A model generated the notes under the pieces. The model searched no databases, was not told the origin of the DNA, and saw only the letters and a list, made by a program, of their open reading frames with translations. Positions 13,297-23,152 of a stretch of 38,061 nt of DNA are shown in pieces. Position 1 is the first letter of the stretch; the number at the start of each line of letters is the position of its first letter. The position numbers and the translations under genes are program-made. This DNA is from Candidatus Martarchaeota archaeon (GTDB taxonomy: Archaea; Micrarchaeota; Micrarchaeia; Micrarchaeales; Micrarchaeaceae): assembly GCA_023473255.1 (NCBI GenBank), contig JAMCYW010000030.1, positions 1 to 38,061 on the forward strand. The letters are read 5' to 3'.

Positions 13297-16200
13297 ATGG
13301 CAAGGATTATGGAGCAGATACATCGTCTTATTATAATGTTCATCGCATTGCCGATATTCGTGCTTTTGGCCTCCAATGCATCAGGCGCATCGGCGAATCC
13401 AACTTACAATATGGGCGCCGCAAATGCAGTCGCTATAAACAGCATTCCTATAATGGCAGCTCCTGCGCCATCAACATGCACTGTTGCATCTACGCCAAAA
13501 ACCTATTCAAATACTGCAAAGCCATACGTGCTGCAAAGCTCGGTTTGTGCAACCGACATAACGATTGACAGCGGTGTCACTGTAATAACCAATAACCAAT
13601 CTATGACAGCTACAGGCACATTTACTATTGATTCCGGCGGCGTTCTTGAAGGTGCTGGCGCCGCTCCCGGCGGCGGATGTTCTGAAGCCAAATCATGCTC
13701 ATCCCCTGGCAATTCAGGAAACGTGCAAGAGCCTGGAGGAGGTTCAGGCGGCGATGGAACTAGTGGAACATACGGCGCAAGCGGTTCAGGCGGCGGAGGC
13801 GCAGATGCTCCTGGTGGTAGCAGCACTTCTAACGGAGGCAACAACGGAGGAGGCGGAGGAGGAGGCACCGCGCTTAGCTCAATAGAAAGCGCATGCACAC
13901 ACTCCGAGGATGCTGGCGGAGCAGGGGGCGGCAAGGTCTTAATATATGCTGGAAATTTCTTAAATTATGGCATTATAAATGCTGCAGGGGTATCGGCTTC
14001 AGATAATGGGCAAGGCGTGGATGATGCAGGCGGAGGAGGCGGAGGAGGTTATGTCCTGCTTTATATAGAATCATTAAATCCGTCCAATATAAACATAGGG
14101 GATGTCTATGCCAATGGGGGAAATGGTGGCCTTGCACATACTAGCAAATGCTCAAATGGTGTTATTTCACAAACTAAACAGGGGCGTGAGGGCGGCGGAG
14201 GAGGCGGAGGCAATGTAACAATATACGTTCTTGATAAAAACATTGAGAATGCAATAAATACAAACGCAGTAAACGTGAAAGGAGGTTTTTCAGGTAGTTG
14301 CTACACTGGTAATAATTGCGATACTGCCAACAACGGCAACTCAGGCACATTATATGTAAAAACGCTGGTTCCCAACGGATGCCTTCCTGGCATAACTGGA
14401 AATCTCTTCACCAGCGGAAGTTGCACGTTCTATGCGAATGACACTATAACAACTACTTACGATAACGGGGTAGTGGGCAACGGGCAGATAAGTGCTCAGA
14501 AGGCAAGTGTAACATCGACTGCATCAATGACCGGCAATATTGTTGCCTTCAACAGCCAGAATGCACAGTGGCTTCTTACCTGCCCCGTAGCACCAAATCC
14601 AAGCAATACGCTGGAATACATGATATCCGATGCGTCGTCTTTCGTAGGTGGAAACAGATGCCTTGCAAGCAGCAATTCACTTACTTCAAAGGTACAACTG
14701 GCTACATATGCATACTGGAACGATTCAAACAAAAATACGCGTGTTGCTAATGCAATCGCATATGTCACATTCCAAAATCTGGGCGATGCTTCGATATCAA
14801 ACCTTGGGTATTCTGGAGAGGCCAATACTACTAACAATGTGGCTCCATTTCTGTCAAGCAACTATAATACGCAATCATACATATTTGATTATGTTCCTCC
14901 ATCGTTGCAGAGCGGACTATGGACATGGAATGCAAAGTATGCAGATCTGTCCAATGCGGACCTGTCTAATTCCAACCCACTCCAGCAAAAGACCGAGACT
15001 ATGCAGAACCTTCAGTTTACCACCAGCGGAGGGTGCACATATATATATAATTTTCAGGTATCCGCTCAATTGGACAGCATACAGAATGCGAATATACCTG
15101 TGCCCGTAGCACTAAAAAATATCCCATCAAATTACATCGAATTTACCAGCATTGGATTAAAGTATTATCCAGCTGTAAGCCAACCGCTACCAGGCCACTG
15201 TGCTGAAGATCTATGGACTGATCCGCTTGGCGAACAGCAGGTGACTTGCGATGGTGGCGGCGAAACGTTCAATGTCATTTCATCAGGTGATGCGCTGTTG
15301 AATTGGACTGGTTCATCAAATCCAAACCTGCCAAAAGGTGCATATGGAGGAAACAATGCGTACACATCTACCTCATATCCAAATGAATACATAACCTCAG
15401 TGGACTATGTCACATACAGTTCATGCTATGAAATTTTTACCTGCGCAAATAACAACTACTACACATTCTCTGCACCTATTGGCGTAGCCAAGGTGGAAAA
15501 TAGCCCAGTATACCCGTATCTGCTTTACAATATAAGCATACCTTCAACAGAAACCAACATAGGCCACGGCACTTCAGACCTGAATCTATCCCTTGATATG
15601 TATAGTCCTCATAACACATTCAGCCCTGGAAACTATCTTGAGCCATATCGCCTATCAACTGGCTCGGGCTTTTTCACTACATTGCATGTGAACGGCGGTT
15701 CGTATCTCGCAGAATATCCTATAAACTGGACATCATCAAATGCTGTGTTCGATAAGCCTATAACAAATTTCATTTCTACGTTGTCCAATGCTGCGGCAAG
15801 CGCAATAACCGGACTGACAAACCTTATAAGCGGCGGTGCAGTGGGCAGCTTTTCAAACGGCGAAATAACTCAGCCATCTTTCATAGCCTCATCATCCAAT
15901 GACCATATATACATATTGAATTATACCACTAGATCTACTGGGTGCTATATCACTTGCACAGGTAAATCGACAAGCACATTCCTTTATACAATGAGGTTCA
16001 TACCCCCAGGATATTTCAACATATCTAGGTTCCAGCCTAACTTTACCGAAAGTTATGTAACTCCTAGCGCATCTAGCTGGAATTCTATCTGGACCAACTA
16101 TTGGGACAATATTATCAATATACAATCGAAGAACCTCTATATAACAAACGTTACAGAAATATCTAGTGGAACCACTAACTTCTGCTGGAACCTCTCGTTC

Positions 16201-19200
16201 AGCTGCTCCAGCAGCAATGCCGGGGCAGATTTCAGCAGTTTCATACCAACTGCATTAACGTCGGATTATTCTGGAGACATATTTATATTGGGTCAGATAT
16301 CTGGTTCATCTAACTATGAAGTATCTGCCATATTCTCAAACAAGACATATGCTGCCAATTCATTGAGCGCAGAATCGGGTTTCAGCCCGGTGAGCCAGAT
16401 AGCAGCTACGCCAGGGGGGCAATACATTTATGTATCAAATTCTACCGGAAACGTTTCTATGTTCAAGGCCGCAAAAAACAGCATAACGTTCGCAGGATAC
16501 ATAAATCTAGGCTATTCAAATTATACCGATAATCTATCCATAACCTCTTATCTGCAGCATGGCGGCCCATATGCAAATTCGTTGATAGCTAAAGCATATT
16601 CAAATGAACCTGTGTCAAATGACATAAATTCCAACCATATCCCAATCGGAATTGCATCGTACGACGGGGTATTGTACGAACTCGACAATTGGTCATTTAC
16701 TGTAAATGGGCTGCAATCTAGCATGCTGATGCTCAGGGCATTCAGTGCAAACGGCACAGAAATTCCGATAAAAGCGCAGAATTACAGCGACATAATACCT
16801 AACAATGTACCTACCACAGATTTGAGCACCGGGGGTTCAGGAATAACGTATTTCCCTCCGTTTGGATGGCCTCTATCCGCGAACATATCTATTGGCAATG
16901 GCAACTATATAACGTACTGCGCAGCGAATTGCGACTTCACGCCATCCAACATCCCTGCGAGCAAAGCAGACGGTTATCTGCCAATAGGCCCAAGCATATC
17001 AAATCAAGGCAACGTCGGCCCAAATTCCGACGATCTGGGCTTCACGTCAAATTTCAACGGGACCATGATGATATTGGCGCATGCACATTCGTATAGCTAT
17101 ACCCCTCCTTCAAAAGAGTGTTCCTCTTCTGCAGCTGAGCGTAGAATTAATCCCACATGCGATATTCAAAACACTGCGGGCAGCTCTATGTATACCGAAC
17201 TGCTGAAGTTTAAGCCGGTTATAATAAATTATACAAAGGTGTCATTTGCCCAGAATTCAAAATACAGCTGCTTCATCGCAAATACGATAGCAGTAAGCAA
17301 TACGCCATGCACCATAAACTACAACATAGCTGATATGTATCCGCCATTTACAGAGGTGCCGAGTTCATTCAATTATTCTACAGATGAGGGTTCGCCGACG
17401 AAATACTTCTCCATATCTAGCGTGGTGTCATCACTATTCCCAACGGGAATCTCGTCAAGTTATAGTACCTCTGCCAATTCCGCAGCCGACACCGGCAGCG
17501 GCCTAACCGACAACAGTGCTGATGATATCTATAGCGCTGCAAATTCGCTCACACCTTTCGGTCCACCAAGCATCGTGCCGCAGACATATATAAACAGCAC
17601 CATAAGGGGCTATTTTATAGTGCCATATACTGCATCATACTCGCTTTCAGAATCATGGAGCCCTCAGAGCGACCCTGCGACGTCCAGTTCTCCGTCATCG
17701 TGCAGCGCCTACAATTTCCCCAGCCCTACGACTATCGATTATAGCGGATATTCTGTGGGGCAGTTCAATTACACAAGCAATCAAGCCAGCATAAATAGCA
17801 CCATACAGGGAGGGTATTCATATGCCCAATACCTTGTAAATCCAAAGACATATTACAACGCCAGCCTGTCAGACCAAAACTTGATATTTCCCGGAGAAGT
17901 GAACCTTGCGATGCTAACAAACAAGCTGTTTGGCAACATGTACATAAACCAGAGCGTAGGGAGTTCAAATGGAAAGATTCAATTGCTAAGCAATCCCTAC
18001 GTAATAAATGCCACAAGGGGTTTGTTGTATAGCGAATTTTATGTGAATCAGACGTCTGCGCCTGACACGCCCTCGGGATTCACATTCCCGTCTATCGGCT
18101 ATCCAGGCTATATGCTGACCCAAGCCAACGTGTTAAATCCCATAGAATACGGTGCAGCTAATGCGGTTTTGGAAAATATCAATCCATATCCTGAAAGCAA
18201 TAACCTGGTATTTATCAATAAAACAACCCCTGCAATGGTCAATCTGTACTCTTTATACAAGAAGGTGTCGCAGTTAGACCTGCTATTCCAAGGGTTTCCA
18301 AACAATGCAAATGTCCTTGGGTATAACCGCTTCATGTATGTATTCACTGACGCTTTCAACAATACTGTATACATGCCGCTTGACACAGACCTGTCAAATA
18401 TCACGTCCATAACTTTGAATCCATCCATTGTGATCAATCCCACGAACTCTAACGAAACGGCGATAACTGTAAGTGGGACTGCTGGATACTATAGCGGCGT
18501 ATTCGGAGATAAATACGTGCCATTGCCATCAGGCGATCCTATATACGTATATTACGATACCAACATAAACTTCTTTAATTCAAGCGTAGCTCCTCCATCG
18601 CAGGCGTATTTCGATTATAGTGATCAATGCGCGTTTGCATCAAATTCTACTGGATGCCAATATGCAGATCCTTTGTCATCGGTGACGCAGGGCGGATATT
18701 ATATAAAGGAGGCAGATGCTCCAACATTCCACACGCAATATAATGACACTCCAAACGCGCAAGGCGTTTCGACATGCTCGCCATCGCCAACAAGCCTGCT
18801 TTCGGCACACATACCGATAAACTGCAACATATACGGAAATTACGGCTTGCCTATATCGATATCATCGAGCGAAACGCCTAACAATGAGCCGGAATATTGC
18901 CTTCCAGAATTTGCTAATGGAACGGGCGTACTAACCTCACAGATGGGCTTAGTTGGAATTGTACACACAAATAACTTGGGCCAATTTTCTGAAAAATTTA
19001 ACGTATGTGGAACCGGCACCGCAAAGATCATGGCGCAATATTTTGGCAATCCTGGTCCTGAACCGCAGCTCGTATATCAGCCGCCCATAAGCGAATCAGT
19101 GGGCAGCTATGCGGCGCAGGATGCAAATAGCCTAAATACATTAGAATACGCATATACTACATCTCCAAATGCCACGGCCGTATCGCTTGACATAGGAAAC

Positions 19201-19311
19201 TACGCGCTGGGGTTTGGTGGCATCAGCATAGGCTTAACTTTGATAATGGCCATACTCGCGATAATATTCCTCTTAACAAGGCACGGAGCGCAGAATGCAA
19301 AGAGGAGATAA
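13297..19311 (+). CDS. Giant (2004 aa) secreted, C-terminally membrane-anchored surface protein
   Basis: N-terminal signal sequence (RLIIMFIALPIFVLLASNASGASA), Gly-rich block (GGGGSGG.../GGGGGGGT), many N-x-S/T sequons, YVTN/beta-propeller-like segment (VSQIAATPGGQYIYVSNSTGNVSMF), C-terminal TM (ISIGLTLIMAILAIIFLL) followed by TRHGAQNAKRR. TATA-like ttataaatatac about 13253-13264. Confidence 0.75.
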   Translation: MARIMEQIHRLIIMFIALPIFVLLASNASGASANPTYNMGAANAVAINSIPIMAAPAPSTCTVASTPKTYSNTAKPYVLQSSVCATDITIDSGVTVITNNQSMTATGTFTIDSGGVLEGAGAAPGGGCSEAKSCSSPGNSGNVQEPGGGSGGDGTSGTYGASGSGGGGADAPGGSSTSNGGNNGGGGGGGTALSSIESACTHSEDAGGAGGGKVLIYAGNFLNYGIINAAGVSASDNGQGVDDAGGGGGGGYVLLYIESLNPSNINIGDVYANGGNGGLAHTSKCSNGVISQTKQGREGGGGGGGNVTIYVLDKNIENAINTNAVNVKGGFSGSCYTGNNCDTANNGNSGTLYVKTLVPNGCLPGITGNLFTSGSCTFYANDTITTTYDNGVVGNGQISAQKASVTSTASMTGNIVAFNSQNAQWLLTCPVAPNPSNTLEYMISDASSFVGGNRCLASSNSLTSKVQLATYAYWNDSNKNTRVANAIAYVTFQNLGDASISNLGYSGEANTTNNVAPFLSSNYNTQSYIFDYVPPSLQSGLWTWNAKYADLSNADLSNSNPLQQKTETMQNLQFTTSGGCTYIYNFQVSAQLDSIQNANIPVPVALKNIPSNYIEFTSIGLKYYPAVSQPLPGHCAEDLWTDPLGEQQVTCDGGGETFNVISSGDALLNWTGSSNPNLPKGAYGGNNAYTSTSYPNEYITSVDYVTYSSCYEIFTCANNNYYTFSAPIGVAKVENSPVYPYLLYNISIPSTETNIGHGTSDLNLSLDMYSPHNTFSPGNYLEPYRLSTGSGFFTTLHVNGGSYLAEYPINWTSSNAVFDKPITNFISTLSNAAASAITGLTNLISGGAVGSFSNGEITQPSFIASSSNDHIYILNYTTRSTGCYITCTGKSTSTFLYTMRFIPPGYFNISRFQPNFTESYVTPSASSWNSIWTNYWDNIINIQSKNLYITNVTEISSGTTNFCWNLSFSCSSSNAGADFSSFIPTALTSDYSGDIFILGQISGSSNYEVSAIFSNKTYAANSLSAESGFSPVSQIAATPGGQYIYVSNSTGNVSMFKAAKNSITFAGYINLGYSNYTDNLSITSYLQHGGPYANSLIAKAYSNEPVSNDINSNHIPIGIASYDGVLYELDNWSFTVNGLQSSMLMLRAFSANGTEIPIKAQNYSDIIPNNVPTTDLSTGGSGITYFPPFGWPLSANISIGNGNYITYCAANCDFTPSNIPASKADGYLPIGPSISNQGNVGPNSDDLGFTSNFNGTMMILAHAHSYSYTPPSKECSSSAAERRINPTCDIQNTAGSSMYTELLKFKPVIINYTKVSFAQNSKYSCFIANTIAVSNTPCTINYNIADMYPPFTEVPSSFNYSTDEGSPTKYFSISSVVSSLFPTGISSSYSTSANSAADTGSGLTDNSADDIYSAANSLTPFGPPSIVPQTYINSTIRGYFIVPYTASYSLSESWSPQSDPATSSSPSSCSAYNFPSPTTIDYSGYSVGQFNYTSNQASINSTIQGGYSYAQYLVNPKTYYNASLSDQNLIFPGEVNLAMLTNKLFGNMYINQSVGSSNGKIQLLSNPYVINATRGLLYSEFYVNQTSAPDTPSGFTFPSIGYPGYMLTQANVLNPIEYGAANAVLENINPYPESNNLVFINKTTPAMVNLYSLYKKVSQLDLLFQGFPNNANVLGYNRFMYVFTDAFNNTVYMPLDTDLSNITSITLNPSIVINPTNSNETAITVSGTAGYYSGVFGDKYVPLPSGDPIYVYYDTNINFFNSSVAPPSQAYFDYSDQCAFASNSTGCQYADPLSSVTQGGYYIKEADAPTFHTQYNDTPNAQGVSTCSPSPTSLLSAHIPINCNIYGNYGLPISISSSETPNNEPEYCLPEFANGTGVLTSQMGLVGIVHTNNLGQFSEKFNVCGTGTAKIMAQYFGNPGPEPQLVYQPPISESVGSYAAQDANSLNTLEYAYTTSPNATAVSLDIGNYALGFGGISIGLTLIMAILAIIFLLTRHGAQNAKRR

Positions 19312-19360
19312 AAGAATATATTTAAATATCAAAAATACCATTCTATATATAGATGAGTTT

Positions 19361-21181
19361 ATGCTTTGGCTTGTTGCGCTGAGCTTTAATGCAGTATATA
19401 CGCTTATTCCAATAATAATAATAGTGGTTCTTATCGGAGCAGGCGCAGGGCTTTCCAGGAACACTGATTTCTTTGCCTTGATGGGTTTTGGGACTCTGAT
19501 TAGCGCAGCTAGGCCAGGCGGAAGCGTAGGCAAAGGCTTTAAAGGCACTAAATATGGAGGTGGCAAAGCAAAGCGCGGCCCTATAAAGAAGCATAACAAA
19601 AAGAAGCCAACACGAATTAAGAGAGTTAAGGGGCTAATAAAAAAGATATCTGCAAAGCATGTCATGAACGTGAAGCTTAAAAATCAGGCGAAGGCAAATC
19701 TTGGCATAAAAGCCGCAAATAGCATGCATAATACCGGTTCGCAGGCCAAAAAATTGGCAACGCAAGTGCAAGTTAAGAACATGAACAACTCTGCATTGAC
19801 TGCCTTGACTCTTGGCAGAATAAATATGGCTACGTCGCATGCAAGAAAGCTTAAAGGCGCAGGCCCGCAAACCAAGTATGGAATATACGGGCAAAAATTG
19901 GCTGACAGTAAAGTTGGAGAAAATCTACGAGATGCAAGAAACGCGCGCAATGCTGCCGTAAAGAAGCTGAATGAATCCTATAGGAAACAGGCAGATTTTA
20001 AAGAATCCCTTATAAGCAAAACATACCCATCTGGAAAGCCAAAGAGCCTTTCTGATAAATTCAAGGATTCTGATGTAAAATCTGAAGAACTGAAGAAGTC
20101 ATTGGTAGCCACTATGCTAAAGCATCCTGTAATATTCGGTGCAGTTTCCCTTCCCGCATTTCTGGCCGCCAGGTATACTACCAAAGCCGGAAAGCAGAGG
20201 GGAATAGACCTGAGCGTCGAAAAGAACAAAGCAATAGTGGCAAAAAAAATAAGGAATGAAGAAAAAACAAGGTCAGATGCCAATTATATGCTGTTTAAGT
20301 CATCGATGCCCAGCAAGAAAGAAGCTAGAACCGCGTTCAAAAACGAATACAAAAAATTAAAAAGCGAATATAACAACATTCAAAACGCCGAGAAAGAAGC
20401 TAAAAAAAGCACGAAAAAAGCTGAGGTAAACATGATAAAAAGCCAGGCTGAAGCCTACTACAAAAATATGACATGGGCGCAGATGCTTAAGATTAACGCC
20501 ATAGATCGCTGGAATTACAATAAGGCACCTATCTTCGATCAAGAAGGCAGGCAAAAGAATCCTTCAATTTTGGGGAGCCATTATGAAAAGAAGATAAATA
20601 ACATGGACGAATCGCAGATAAATAAACTAAATGATAGGCTTAATAAGGTGCCTTCGATAAAAGACACCACTTCTAAGGTCGACAGAGAGAAGGAAGCTTT
20701 AGGCATTGCGATGCTATCAAAAAGGAAGCAAAAGAAGTATGAGCGCCTAGAGGAAAAAGAGACAAACAAATCAATATCCAGCAAGGAAAAGGAAACTAAG
20801 GACGAAATAGGGCTGAAAGCGGCTGCAATTATAGATAGGCGCGCCAAGGCCATTAGATACCAATTCCATCCTGAAATAAATCCTCAAACTAATCCACAAA
20901 CAAACCAACAAACTGGCTCAAACAAAAAGCCCAGCCAGCCGAAGATGACTAGCGACCAATTCAAAAAAGATTTTCAGGAAAAGCGCAACGCTGAAGCTGA
21001 GCTAAAAGCAAAAGAGTATTATTTGGATAAGTACAAAAAACAACTGGAAAAAATAGCGCGGGAAAAGCAGGAAAACGCAGACGAAGAGAGGAGAATAGAA
21101 GAAGAAAAGCAAAAGAAAGCGCAAAAAAAATCAAACCCATCAAGCAAACCAAACCCTCCAAACAAACCGAGCAAGCCATGA
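19361..21181 (+). CDS. Lys-rich membrane-associated protein with coiled-coil-like regions
   Basis: N-terminal hydrophobic segment (WLVALSFNAVYTLIPIIIIVVLIGAGAGL), highly basic body, second short hydrophobic segment (HPVIFGAVSLPAFLAA), Pro/Asn/Lys tail. The track start at 19295 overlaps the upstream CDS; the ATG at 19361 lies about 35 nt after a TATA-like tttaaatat and is equally plausible. Confidence 0.6.
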   Translation: MLWLVALSFNAVYTLIPIIIIVVLIGAGAGLSRNTDFFALMGFGTLISAARPGGSVGKGFKGTKYGGGKAKRGPIKKHNKKKPTRIKRVKGLIKKISAKHVMNVKLKNQAKANLGIKAANSMHNTGSQAKKLATQVQVKNMNNSALTALTLGRINMATSHARKLKGAGPQTKYGIYGQKLADSKVGENLRDARNARNAAVKKLNESYRKQADFKESLISKTYPSGKPKSLSDKFKDSDVKSEELKKSLVATMLKHPVIFGAVSLPAFLAARYTTKAGKQRGIDLSVEKNKAIVAKKIRNEEKTRSDANYMLFKSSMPSKKEARTAFKNEYKKLKSEYNNIQNAEKEAKKSTKKAEVNMIKSQAEAYYKNMTWAQMLKINAIDRWNYNKAPIFDQEGRQKNPSILGSHYEKKINNMDESQINKLNDRLNKVPSIKDTTSKVDREKEALGIAMLSKRKQKKYERLEEKETNKSISSKEKETKDEIGLKAAAIIDRRAKAIRYQFHPEINPQTNPQTNQQTGSNKKPSQPKMTSDQFKKDFQEKRNAEAELKAKEYYLDKYKKQLEKIAREKQENADEERRIEEEKQKKAQKKSNPSSKPNPPNKPSKP

Positions 21182-21217: not shown

Positions 21218-21943
21218 CTAAAGCACTCTTCTTAATATCTCGTTGCCTATATCCTCACCTGCAATGATCTCGGGCATGACTATCTTGTATATTCCAGCAT
21301 GGCCTATCCTCTGCAGGTTTTCCTGCTGTGCTATTCTTGATATCACCTTCAAACTATCGTTTATGGATTTTGCCGATATTGATATCAGTATGTTTTGCAC
21401 ATCGTCAGAGCTGCATGTTATCAGATGCGATGCCCATTTTGCACCTGCATTTCGCAGTACGTCTATCTGCGTTGGATCTCCGACTATCGGAAGCTTGCCT
21501 TTGCTATAAAGGAGGTCTGCCTCCTTTTCATTATCTACTATAACTACATAAGGTATGCGGTCTTTGTCCAAGCCCTCAATCAGCGTTTCAGAAAATCCGT
21601 TGAACGGTGCTATTACCATGTGGTTGTGCAGCCTCTTTATCCTGTTCAGGATTATCCTATCGCGTATCCTTACGCTTCTGAAGAAGTCAAAGAACAGCGA
21701 TGCAAGCCAAACCGTCAGCAGTGCAAATACGAAAACGTCTAGCAGATTTGCAGCAAATATGAGCGGCGTTTTGGAAATTGCAAAAGGTAAGGCGTAATAC
21801 ATTATGTCTAATGCAGCGAGGAAGTTCCACACTATAGCTATATTAAAGCCAACCCCTGCCTTCAATGTGAGAATTACTGATATGAGGAGCAACAATGCAG
21901 ATGCATAGATGAGCAAATATTGTTTTTGTCCAGCCATATTCAA
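21218..21943 (-). CDS. Membrane protein with C-terminal RCK/TrkA-N-like domain, degenerate pore
   Basis: Two hydrophobic segments then HNHMVIAPFNGFSETLIEGL...VGDPTQIDVLRNAGAKWASHLIT...VMPEIIAGEDIGNEI. Overlaps the upstream gene by 4 nt. Confidence 0.75.
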   Translation of the reverse strand: MNMAGQKQYLLIYASALLLLISVILTLKAGVGFNIAIVWNFLAALDIMYYALPFAISKTPLIFAANLLDVFVFALLTVWLASLFFDFFRSVRIRDRIILNRIKRLHNHMVIAPFNGFSETLIEGLDKDRIPYVVIVDNEKEADLLYSKGKLPIVGDPTQIDVLRNAGAKWASHLITCSSDDVQNILISISAKSINDSLKVISRIAQQENLQRIGHAGIYKIVMPEIIAGEDIGNEILRRVL

Positions 21944-22722
21944 TTACCCTTAAATATTTTTTTTATGCTGTTGCCCAATTCAAGCCCTGCAAGTATCTCA
22001 GGCACTATGCACAGCGATGCGCCAGCCCTATGCATTTTTGGCACTGCAAGTTCATCCTTTGCCCTAGCTATTATAAGTATATCCTGATTAGCGTGCCTTG
22101 CAGTTATTATGCCTAAAAGGTTCTCGAAATCGCTTTCCGTGCCGAATATAATTGCACGCGCGCTCGATATGCCTGCTTCTGAGAGCACGCTCTCGCTGGT
22201 GAAATTTCCAAATATCGTCCTGTAGTTCAGGCTTGATGCCTGGTCTATTTTTGCAGAGCTGTTATCTACAACTATGAAGTTCATGTTCTTTGAGGAAAGG
22301 TCCATGCAAAGCCTCTCTGCAAGCATGCTGTATCCGCATACAATTATCCCTTTCTGCTCCCGTCGCATCCTTAAATGACTCAGCCTTTCGCGCAGCTTTA
22401 TGTTTGTTATTAAATCTATTATCCCTGCCAAGAGGAAACCTATCGCCACTATCTTTATTATCCCGTCCATTATCAGGATGGAAAACAGCGGCCAAAAATC
22501 TGCGCTGAAGATGGGGATGTAATGTATTATCGCAGGAGCTGTGTTTACTCCTATAGTATCAAAAAGCACGCTTACAGTGAAGTATCCCGCATCATATAAA
22601 TTCTTTGTAATGAGGTCCACGAAATAAGTTGTTGCAAGTGCAAATACAACGACCACTACAATTACGAACGCTATGTACTTTATTGGTATCTTCTCTACAA
22701 ATTTTTTAGGATCTATCCCCAA
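21940..22722 (-). CDS. 2TM ion-channel-like protein with RCK (TrkA-N) domain
   Basis: 2TM/pore-like region LYDAGYFTVSVLFDTIGVNTAP followed by GIIVCGYSMLAERLCMDL...FGNFTSESVLSEAGISSARAII...VPEILAGLELGN. Confidence 0.8.
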   Translation of the reverse strand: MGIDPKKFVEKIPIKYIAFVIVVVVVFALATTYFVDLITKNLYDAGYFTVSVLFDTIGVNTAPAIIHYIPIFSADFWPLFSILIMDGIIKIVAIGFLLAGIIDLITNIKLRERLSHLRMRREQKGIIVCGYSMLAERLCMDLSSKNMNFIVVDNSSAKIDQASSLNYRTIFGNFTSESVLSEAGISSARAIIFGTESDFENLLGIITARHANQDILIIARAKDELAVPKMHRAGASLCIVPEILAGLELGNSIKKIFKGN

Positions 22723-22726
22723 CTGA

Positions 22727-23152
22727 TCACTGCTTCTTCTTCAATTCTCCTATTATTTCATCGCTGGCGCTCTTTTGCGGCGTAACGATGTAATCTGCTC
22801 CTGCTTCTACGAATTTCTCCCTTATCCTTTCGTCGTTTGCCCTAGTCGCAATGAACAGGCTTTTATTTAGGTCCCTTGCAGTAAGCACAGTGAATATGTT
22901 CTTTGCGTCATTATCCATTACTACTGCTATGGCTTTTGCACTAGTTATCCCTGCCGCACGTAAAGTTTTTGAAGAAGTGGCATCGCCTAATATTACGTTG
23001 TAATTTAACTCCTTTATGGTGTCTACGACGCTTGGGCTGTACTCTATAATTATAAACTGCACTCCGTGGTCTTCCAGTGCCTCAACCACTTTCTGCCCTA
23101 CAACTCCGTATCCGCAGACCACCACATGGTTTTCTAGTTTCTGTGTTGCCAT
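22727..23152 (-). CDS. Stand-alone RCK/TrkA-N protein
   Basis: HVVVCGYGVVGQKVVEAL (GxGxxG), GDATSSKTLRAAGI, VTPQKSASDEI. Confidence 0.88.
   Translation of the reverse strand: MATQKLENHVVVCGYGVVGQKVVEALEDHGVQFIIIEYSPSVVDTIKELNYNVILGDATSSKTLRAAGITSAKAIAVVMDNDAKNIFTVLTARDLNKSLFIATRANDERIREKFVEAGADYIVTPQKSASDEIIGELKKKQ

Follow-up and report, generated by a model that had tools for sequence, protein, structure and literature searches.

A co-retained trio of RCK genes in Micrarchaeota with two membrane subunits lacking the TVGYG filter: a candidate mixed-subunit assembly

Three adjacent archaeal genes, each encoding an RCK domain and two of them adding a membrane part, raise the question of whether their products build one mixed complex on the plan of the RCK-gated channels, and whether such a complex would be a potassium channel. 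They lie in a 38,061-nucleotide stretch of a Candidatus Martarchaeota archaeon genome, the whole of which was analysed and is called the window here. Gene A (22727-23152, minus strand) is the first of the operon and encodes a stand-alone RCK/TrkA_N protein of 141 aa with an intact nucleotide motif; gene B (21940-22722, minus strand; 260 aa) follows after 4 nt, and gene C (21218-21943, minus strand; 241 aa) overlaps B by 4 nt, both encoding membrane subunits of the 2TM-RCK type. This spacing on a single strand, reported in a first-pass annotation of the DNA, agrees exactly with the coordinates. In the mechanical ORF list B and C open on TTG, and C has an ATG two codons downstream. The RCK/TrkA-N domain that had been assigned to each product was recovered far above the Pfam threshold (TrkA_N, PF02254: E values of 1.2e-32, 1.9e-25 and 8.5e-19 and scores of 113, 90 and 68 bits for A, B and C, respectively, against a curated cut-off of 23.8), and the Pfam search gave no further match in any of the three, neither RCK_C (PF02080) nor Ion_trans_2. 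They are the sole TrkA_N matches in the window's own genome (618 kb, 83% complete). Among named records, Candidatus Micrarchaeota archaeon FK1.bin29 is the closest (A is 97% identical), and the trio also occurs in Ca. Micrarchaeum sp. A_DKE, whose genome is complete; a single contig search with A retrieved Micrarchaeota (12 loci) and then bacterial RCK proteins at 45% identity or less.

Relatives were found with B as the query, and the search loci together with 33-34 wide loci gave 53 distinct loci. Synteny across relatives had been set beforehand as the observation able to refute the proposal of a joint complex, and the trio proved syntenic: the order A-B-C on one strand is kept in 53/53 loci, from two families of the order (f1 and f2), with median junctions of +5 nt between A and B and -4 nt between B and C. 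Separate profile searches in 149 genomes of the order found A in 86, C in 84 and both in 83. The four mismatches are explained by contig ends in three genomes (G202, G221, and G237) and, in the fourth (G017, locus L049), by a C that is divergent but in place. Altogether 87 of the 149 genomes carry the trio, each incomplete set is accounted for by a contig end, and no genome keeping B or C alone was found among the 149. Because genus g7, including a 96%-complete genome in a single contig (G011), lacks the trio altogether, the trio is dispensable, and the all-or-none pattern is partly a matter of phylogeny, as there are two trio-bearing clades.

In a maximum-likelihood tree of 80 RCK domains, which included those of the canonical channel of these organisms (K), four clades were resolved (supports: A 95/90, B 100/97, C 98/96, and K 100/100), with B and C on the same side of a 97/89 branch. 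As A, B and C each form a clade of their own, their roles predate the split between f1 and f2 and the division of labour is old; a recent duplication is ruled out by the same tree. The three genes are under purifying selection, and A is the most constrained (Nei-Gojobori dN/dS against a genome of the same genus of 0.027 for A, 0.099 for B and 0.077 for C); with dN/dS at most 0.10, gene decay is also ruled out. Elsewhere in the class, family f11 has a two-gene version (L067:7110-8359, L068:7002-8194, and L069:5782-6974) in which a soluble RCK protein with GxGxxG precedes a 2TM-RCK protein that also has GxGxxG and lacks TVGYG, and it is possible that this version resembles the ancestral state of the trio. 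Single 2TM-RCK proteins of families f15, f17 and f10 (L071-L073) also lack TVGYG and have a recognisable glycine motif. The occurrence of filterless 2TM-RCK proteins in these other families (L067-L073) is a hint that the trio arose by elaboration of an older filterless stock.

The three RCK domains differ in a graded way in their nucleotide-binding residues. The motifs GYGVVG in A, GYSMLA in B and PFNGFSETL in C read as the first-pass annotation had claimed, and their stepwise degeneration is real and conserved within each subfamily across the 53 loci. In A, GYGVVG (23096-23113, minus strand; residues 14-19) is the Rossmann glycine motif; all three glycines of GxGxxG are invariant (53/53), and so is the acid at the end of beta-2 (E/D37, 53/53), with G56 and A58 in 51/53 each and R104 in 52/53, positions that match the pattern of AMP contacts listed for TM1088A (PMC4380455). 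The corresponding motif of B is degenerate (GYSMLA, 22318-22335, minus strand; residues 130-135): the first glycine is kept in 52/53 loci, the second position is S/N in 47/53 (Gly in 5) and the third is A/S/T in 42/53, and the equivalent of Ala58 is Phe in 51/53. In C the glycine loop is replaced by PFNGFSETL (21581-21607, minus strand; residues 113-121), a P-x-N loop (P113 48/53, N115 44/53) without a glycine motif. The ribose-binding acid that ends beta-2 follows the same gradient (53/53 in A, 50/53 in B as D/E153, and 12/53 in C), and the set of nucleotide contacts is thus whole in A, partial in B and almost absent in C. The degenerate motif of the tethered RCK domains, which had been taken as an oddity, turned out to be nothing unusual: degenerate glycine motifs (LIGYSPTNESIA and LIGTDFINQDIA) are also carried by the canonical channels that relatives encode separately, MthK reads CGWSESTLE at this position, and GxGxxG is not required of every RCK domain, as the canonical channels found here and RCK1 of GsuK illustrate.

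The two transmembrane segments reported for B and C were recovered in AlphaFold2 models built on alignments of 13 sequences, in which both proteins are predicted to have a TM1-pore helix-loop-TM2-RCK fold. The model of B (pLDDT 74.5) has helices at 14-39 (TM1), 42-54 (pore helix) and 76-107 (TM2) and the RCK domain from 126, and that of C (pLDDT 84.4) has them at 3-28, 33-44 and 60-90, with the RCK domain from 109. A Foldseek comparison had been suggested, and the top solved match was MthK for both (8djb, E 1.2e-12, for B; 6u68, E 4e-12, for C), followed by GsuK. At the expected TVGYGD site, after the pore helix, B reads DTIGVN (22543-22560, minus strand; residues 55-60), where D55 is kept in 46/53 loci, F54 in 47/53 and G58 in 35/53, and TVGYG was not found at this loop in the alignment of the B family. 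The model of B is least confident in this loop, whose register relative to TVGYG is uncertain by at least one residue and comes out differently in the model, by hhalign and in the profile alignment to GsuK, and therefore we make no residue-level claim about selectivity. Inside TM2 of B, near the position of the hinge glycine, DGIIK (22453-22467, minus strand; residues 86-90) places an acidic and a basic residue one helical turn apart (D86 49/53, G/N87 52/53, and K/R90 50/53), and hhalign aligned it with the S-G of TM2 of the canonical channel. The corresponding filter stretch of C, DIMYY (21794-21808, minus strand; residues 46-50), stands at the place of TVGYG (TLGFG in GsuK) and aligns ungapped to TLGFGD of GsuK and STVGYGD of the relatives, with only the aromatic residue kept (Y/F49, 51/53). 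GxG patterns do occur in the membrane part (6 in B and 13 in C), and most, not all of which were placed, seem to lie before the pore helix, as in AGVGF of C. In every genome inspected, TVGYG is absent from the aligned loop of both B and C, and this loss in both membrane subunits, more than the degeneration of the glycine motifs, is the less usual feature of the trio. In relatives, one of them (G069) from the same genus, a single gene apart from the trio encodes a channel of ~250 aa whose filter reads STVGYGD (or GTVGYGD/ATVGYGD). The K+ filter has thus gone missing in the trio specifically, and its loss across the lineage is ruled out; in the window's own genome, which is 83% complete, such a channel was not found.

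We infer from these data, with about an even chance of being right, that A, B and C form one obligate heteromeric complex on the MthK plan, in which A would be the nucleotide sensor and B and C the membrane part, and which is probably not K+-selective. B and C, as ancient paralogous subunits with two TM segments and a pore helix, would jointly form the membrane part from four subunits, for instance 2B+2C, although this stoichiometry is a guess. Their RCK lobes, together with four soluble A subunits, would close an eight-lobe RCK ring beneath the membrane part, as in MthK (four tethered plus four soluble lobes) and in the 4+4 ring of TM1088A/B. A would bind an adenine nucleotide (of the AMP, ADP or NAD class), and its change of conformation could be passed through the RCK domains of B and C to the inner helices. 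The pore, if it conducts at all, is probably not selective for K+, because B and C have lost TVGYG in organisms that retain, or once had, an STVGYGD channel apart from the trio; a cation or divalent pathway would be in keeping with the Asp conserved in the filter loop of B. A bolder proposal, that the trio is an obligate heteromeric ligand-gated channel of DPANN archaea with three components, two different filterless 2TM pore subunits and a separately encoded nucleotide-sensing RCK protein, and not K+-selective, is possible but doubtful; such a channel would possibly be Ca2+-selective or nonselective, through Asp55 of the loop and Asp86/Lys90 of TM2 in B. The conserved charges in TM2 of B could fit a non-conducting membrane sensor equally well.

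That the trio could instead be a working K+ channel or uptake system, with an unorthodox mixed filter and replacing the canonical channel, is suggested by the scarcity of other K+ systems in the order, where TrkH (PF02386) and Kup were found in 0/149 genomes and KdpA in 5/149 (the same searches were positive in 11, 6 and 5 of 14 control genomes, respectively). By the TrkA_N count there are 86 trio genomes; a strong Ion_trans_2 channel accompanies the trio in 35, whereas in 49 both such a channel and KdpA are missing, and how these 49 handle K+ is a question raised by this work. Moreover, trio and canonical channel are nearly exclusive in family f2 (1/23 vs 46/50), but this pattern follows the clades and its Fisher p-value overstates the association, and in family f1 the two occur together in 34 of the 63 trio genomes. 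Other cation routes also exist, since genes of the Na/H-exchanger family are present in 125/149 genomes, and neither TVGYG nor a close variant is found in B or C, all of which makes a K+ system very unlikely. The exchanger genes do not adjoin the trio and, with TrkH absent as well, a role for A as a KefC/Trk regulator was discarded.

It is somewhat unlikely, in our view, that B and C are channel-derived anchors without conduction and that the trio serves as a membrane sensor or scaffold responding to nucleotide, perhaps acting on a neighbouring M50 protease or on a pilus-like secretion machine. Such a role would agree with the loss of the filter in both B and C everywhere inspected, with the same lack in the single and paired 2TM-RCK proteins of the other families, and with the neighbourhood: in more than half of the 33-34 wide loci, a Peptidase_M50 gene and a T2SSE/T2SSF operon lie no more than five genes away from the trio. 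This operon (L062:1707-7254 and L041:782-6444) encodes a coiled-coil winged-helix protein, the T2SSE ATPase, a small protein without Pfam match and two T2SSF proteins. However, the pore helix and loop topology is kept in the models of both subunits, the conservation of loop residues (D55 and F54 in B, Y/F49 in C) would be unexpected in a pore that is dead weight, and the M50/T2SSE neighbours, which in f1 lie upstream of the trio in divergent orientation and in f2 downstream of it in the same direction, may reflect inherited gene order rather than function. We consider it quite improbable that B and C each assemble into a channel-like homotetramer of their own, with A serving both as a common regulatory ring. 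The homotetramers of MthK and GsuK, and the clear differences between B and C in their loops and TM2 residues, speak for such an arrangement; the failure to find B or C alone in the 149 genomes and the common overlap at the B-C junction speak against it, neither point being decisive.

Other features of the neighbourhood were also observed. In both families the Peptidase_M50 gene (site-2 protease-like; L062:9334-10068, L041:6506-7204, and L035:10512-11207) is found repeatedly upstream of A and in divergent orientation. The f1 trios are frequently convergent with genes for a protein of 450-900 aa and a surface-like protein of 1500-2000 aa. In the window these are a basic, coiled-coil-like protein of 628 aa (19295-21181, plus strand), overlapped by the gene of a secreted or surface-like protein of 2004 aa with a C-terminal TM segment and no Pfam match (13297-19311, plus strand); homologues of both are convergent to the trio in several f1 genomes.

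If the obligate heteromeric complex is correct, it would be an RCK-gated membrane complex in which sensing and two membrane roles are spread over three genes kept together in two families of Micrarchaeota, and a case of a K+ channel scaffold turned to a new use in host-dependent archaea whose genomes are smaller than 1.5 Mb. As a natural system, it would also allow the sensing positions of an RCK ring to be mutated independently of the non-sensing ones. The ligand-gated DPANN channel, if real, would be an RCK channel of mixed subunits in a prokaryote, lacking K+ selectivity. We found no description of the trio in the full-text literature on K+ channels of Micrarchaeota and DPANN archaea and on heteromeric RCK channels, in which few subscription papers were covered. 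The domains are all known; what is undescribed in the literature searched is their distribution over three genes, the presence of two distinct membrane subunits without the filter, and the strictness with which the genes are retained together.

Among known systems, MthK (the RCK-gated K+ channel of Methanothermobacter; PDB 1lnq, 6u68) is like B and C in its TM1-pore helix-TM2-RCK order, with a match along nearly the whole chain, in a ring that needs both soluble and tethered RCK lobes and in the degenerate glycine motif of its tethered RCK domain. It differs in being encoded by one gene and in having TVGYGD and an RCK C-subdomain, whereas the trio has two membrane genes and one soluble gene, lacks TVGYG and has RCK cores that end after helix F; in place of the single gene of the homomeric MthK, three genes always occur together. 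As the filter expected of an MthK-type K+ channel is missing, the trio is better classed among RCK-gated 2TM assemblies. The canonical 2TM-RCK K+ channel of the order (L154-L179), a relative of MthK, shares with B and C a length of ~250 aa, two TM segments with one RCK core, the degenerate glycine motif and, as judged by length, the lack of a C-subdomain, and differs in its STVGYGD-type filter, its single gene and its separate clade (100/100). The plant channels CASTOR, POLLUX and DMI1 also have an RCK ring under a 2TM pore without TVGYG, but they are eukaryotic, with four TM segments, tandem RCK domains in one chain and a larger soluble domain. CASTOR is RCK-gated and Ca2+-selective without TVGYG, and Asp265 of its filter is essential (PMC6697748); this Asp (AD265S(A)GNHA) recalls FDA-x-G of B, a resemblance judged by eye.

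GsuK of Geobacter (PDB 4gx0-4gx5) is the best PDB sequence match of A, B and C alike and combines in one ring a degenerate RCK domain (IFGIDPITRT) and a nucleotide-binding one, the GxGxxG of its RCK2 binding ADP/NAD (PMC3510474); it differs from the trio in having both RCK domains in one chain and a TLGFG filter. The earlier idea that canonical RCK channels are homomeric does not hold as a rule, given that TM1088A/B was solved as a mixed 4+4 hetero-octamer in which only TM1088A binds AMP (PMC4380455; PDB 3l4b). TM1088A is, like A, a soluble PF02254-only subunit with GxGxxG, and its partner TM1088B showed no stabilisation by nucleotides. The pair differs from the trio in that neither RCK protein is fused to TM segments and in working with a TrkH homologue (TM1089), a family found in none of the 149 genomes. 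These solved precedents and the motif gradient favour the part of the first-pass proposal by which one RCK subunit would sense nucleotide and the others have diverged, the divergence being plain in the conserved motifs and the sensing by A a prediction from them. By analogy, the gene pattern of the trio agrees with a mixed RCK ring of the TM1088 type.
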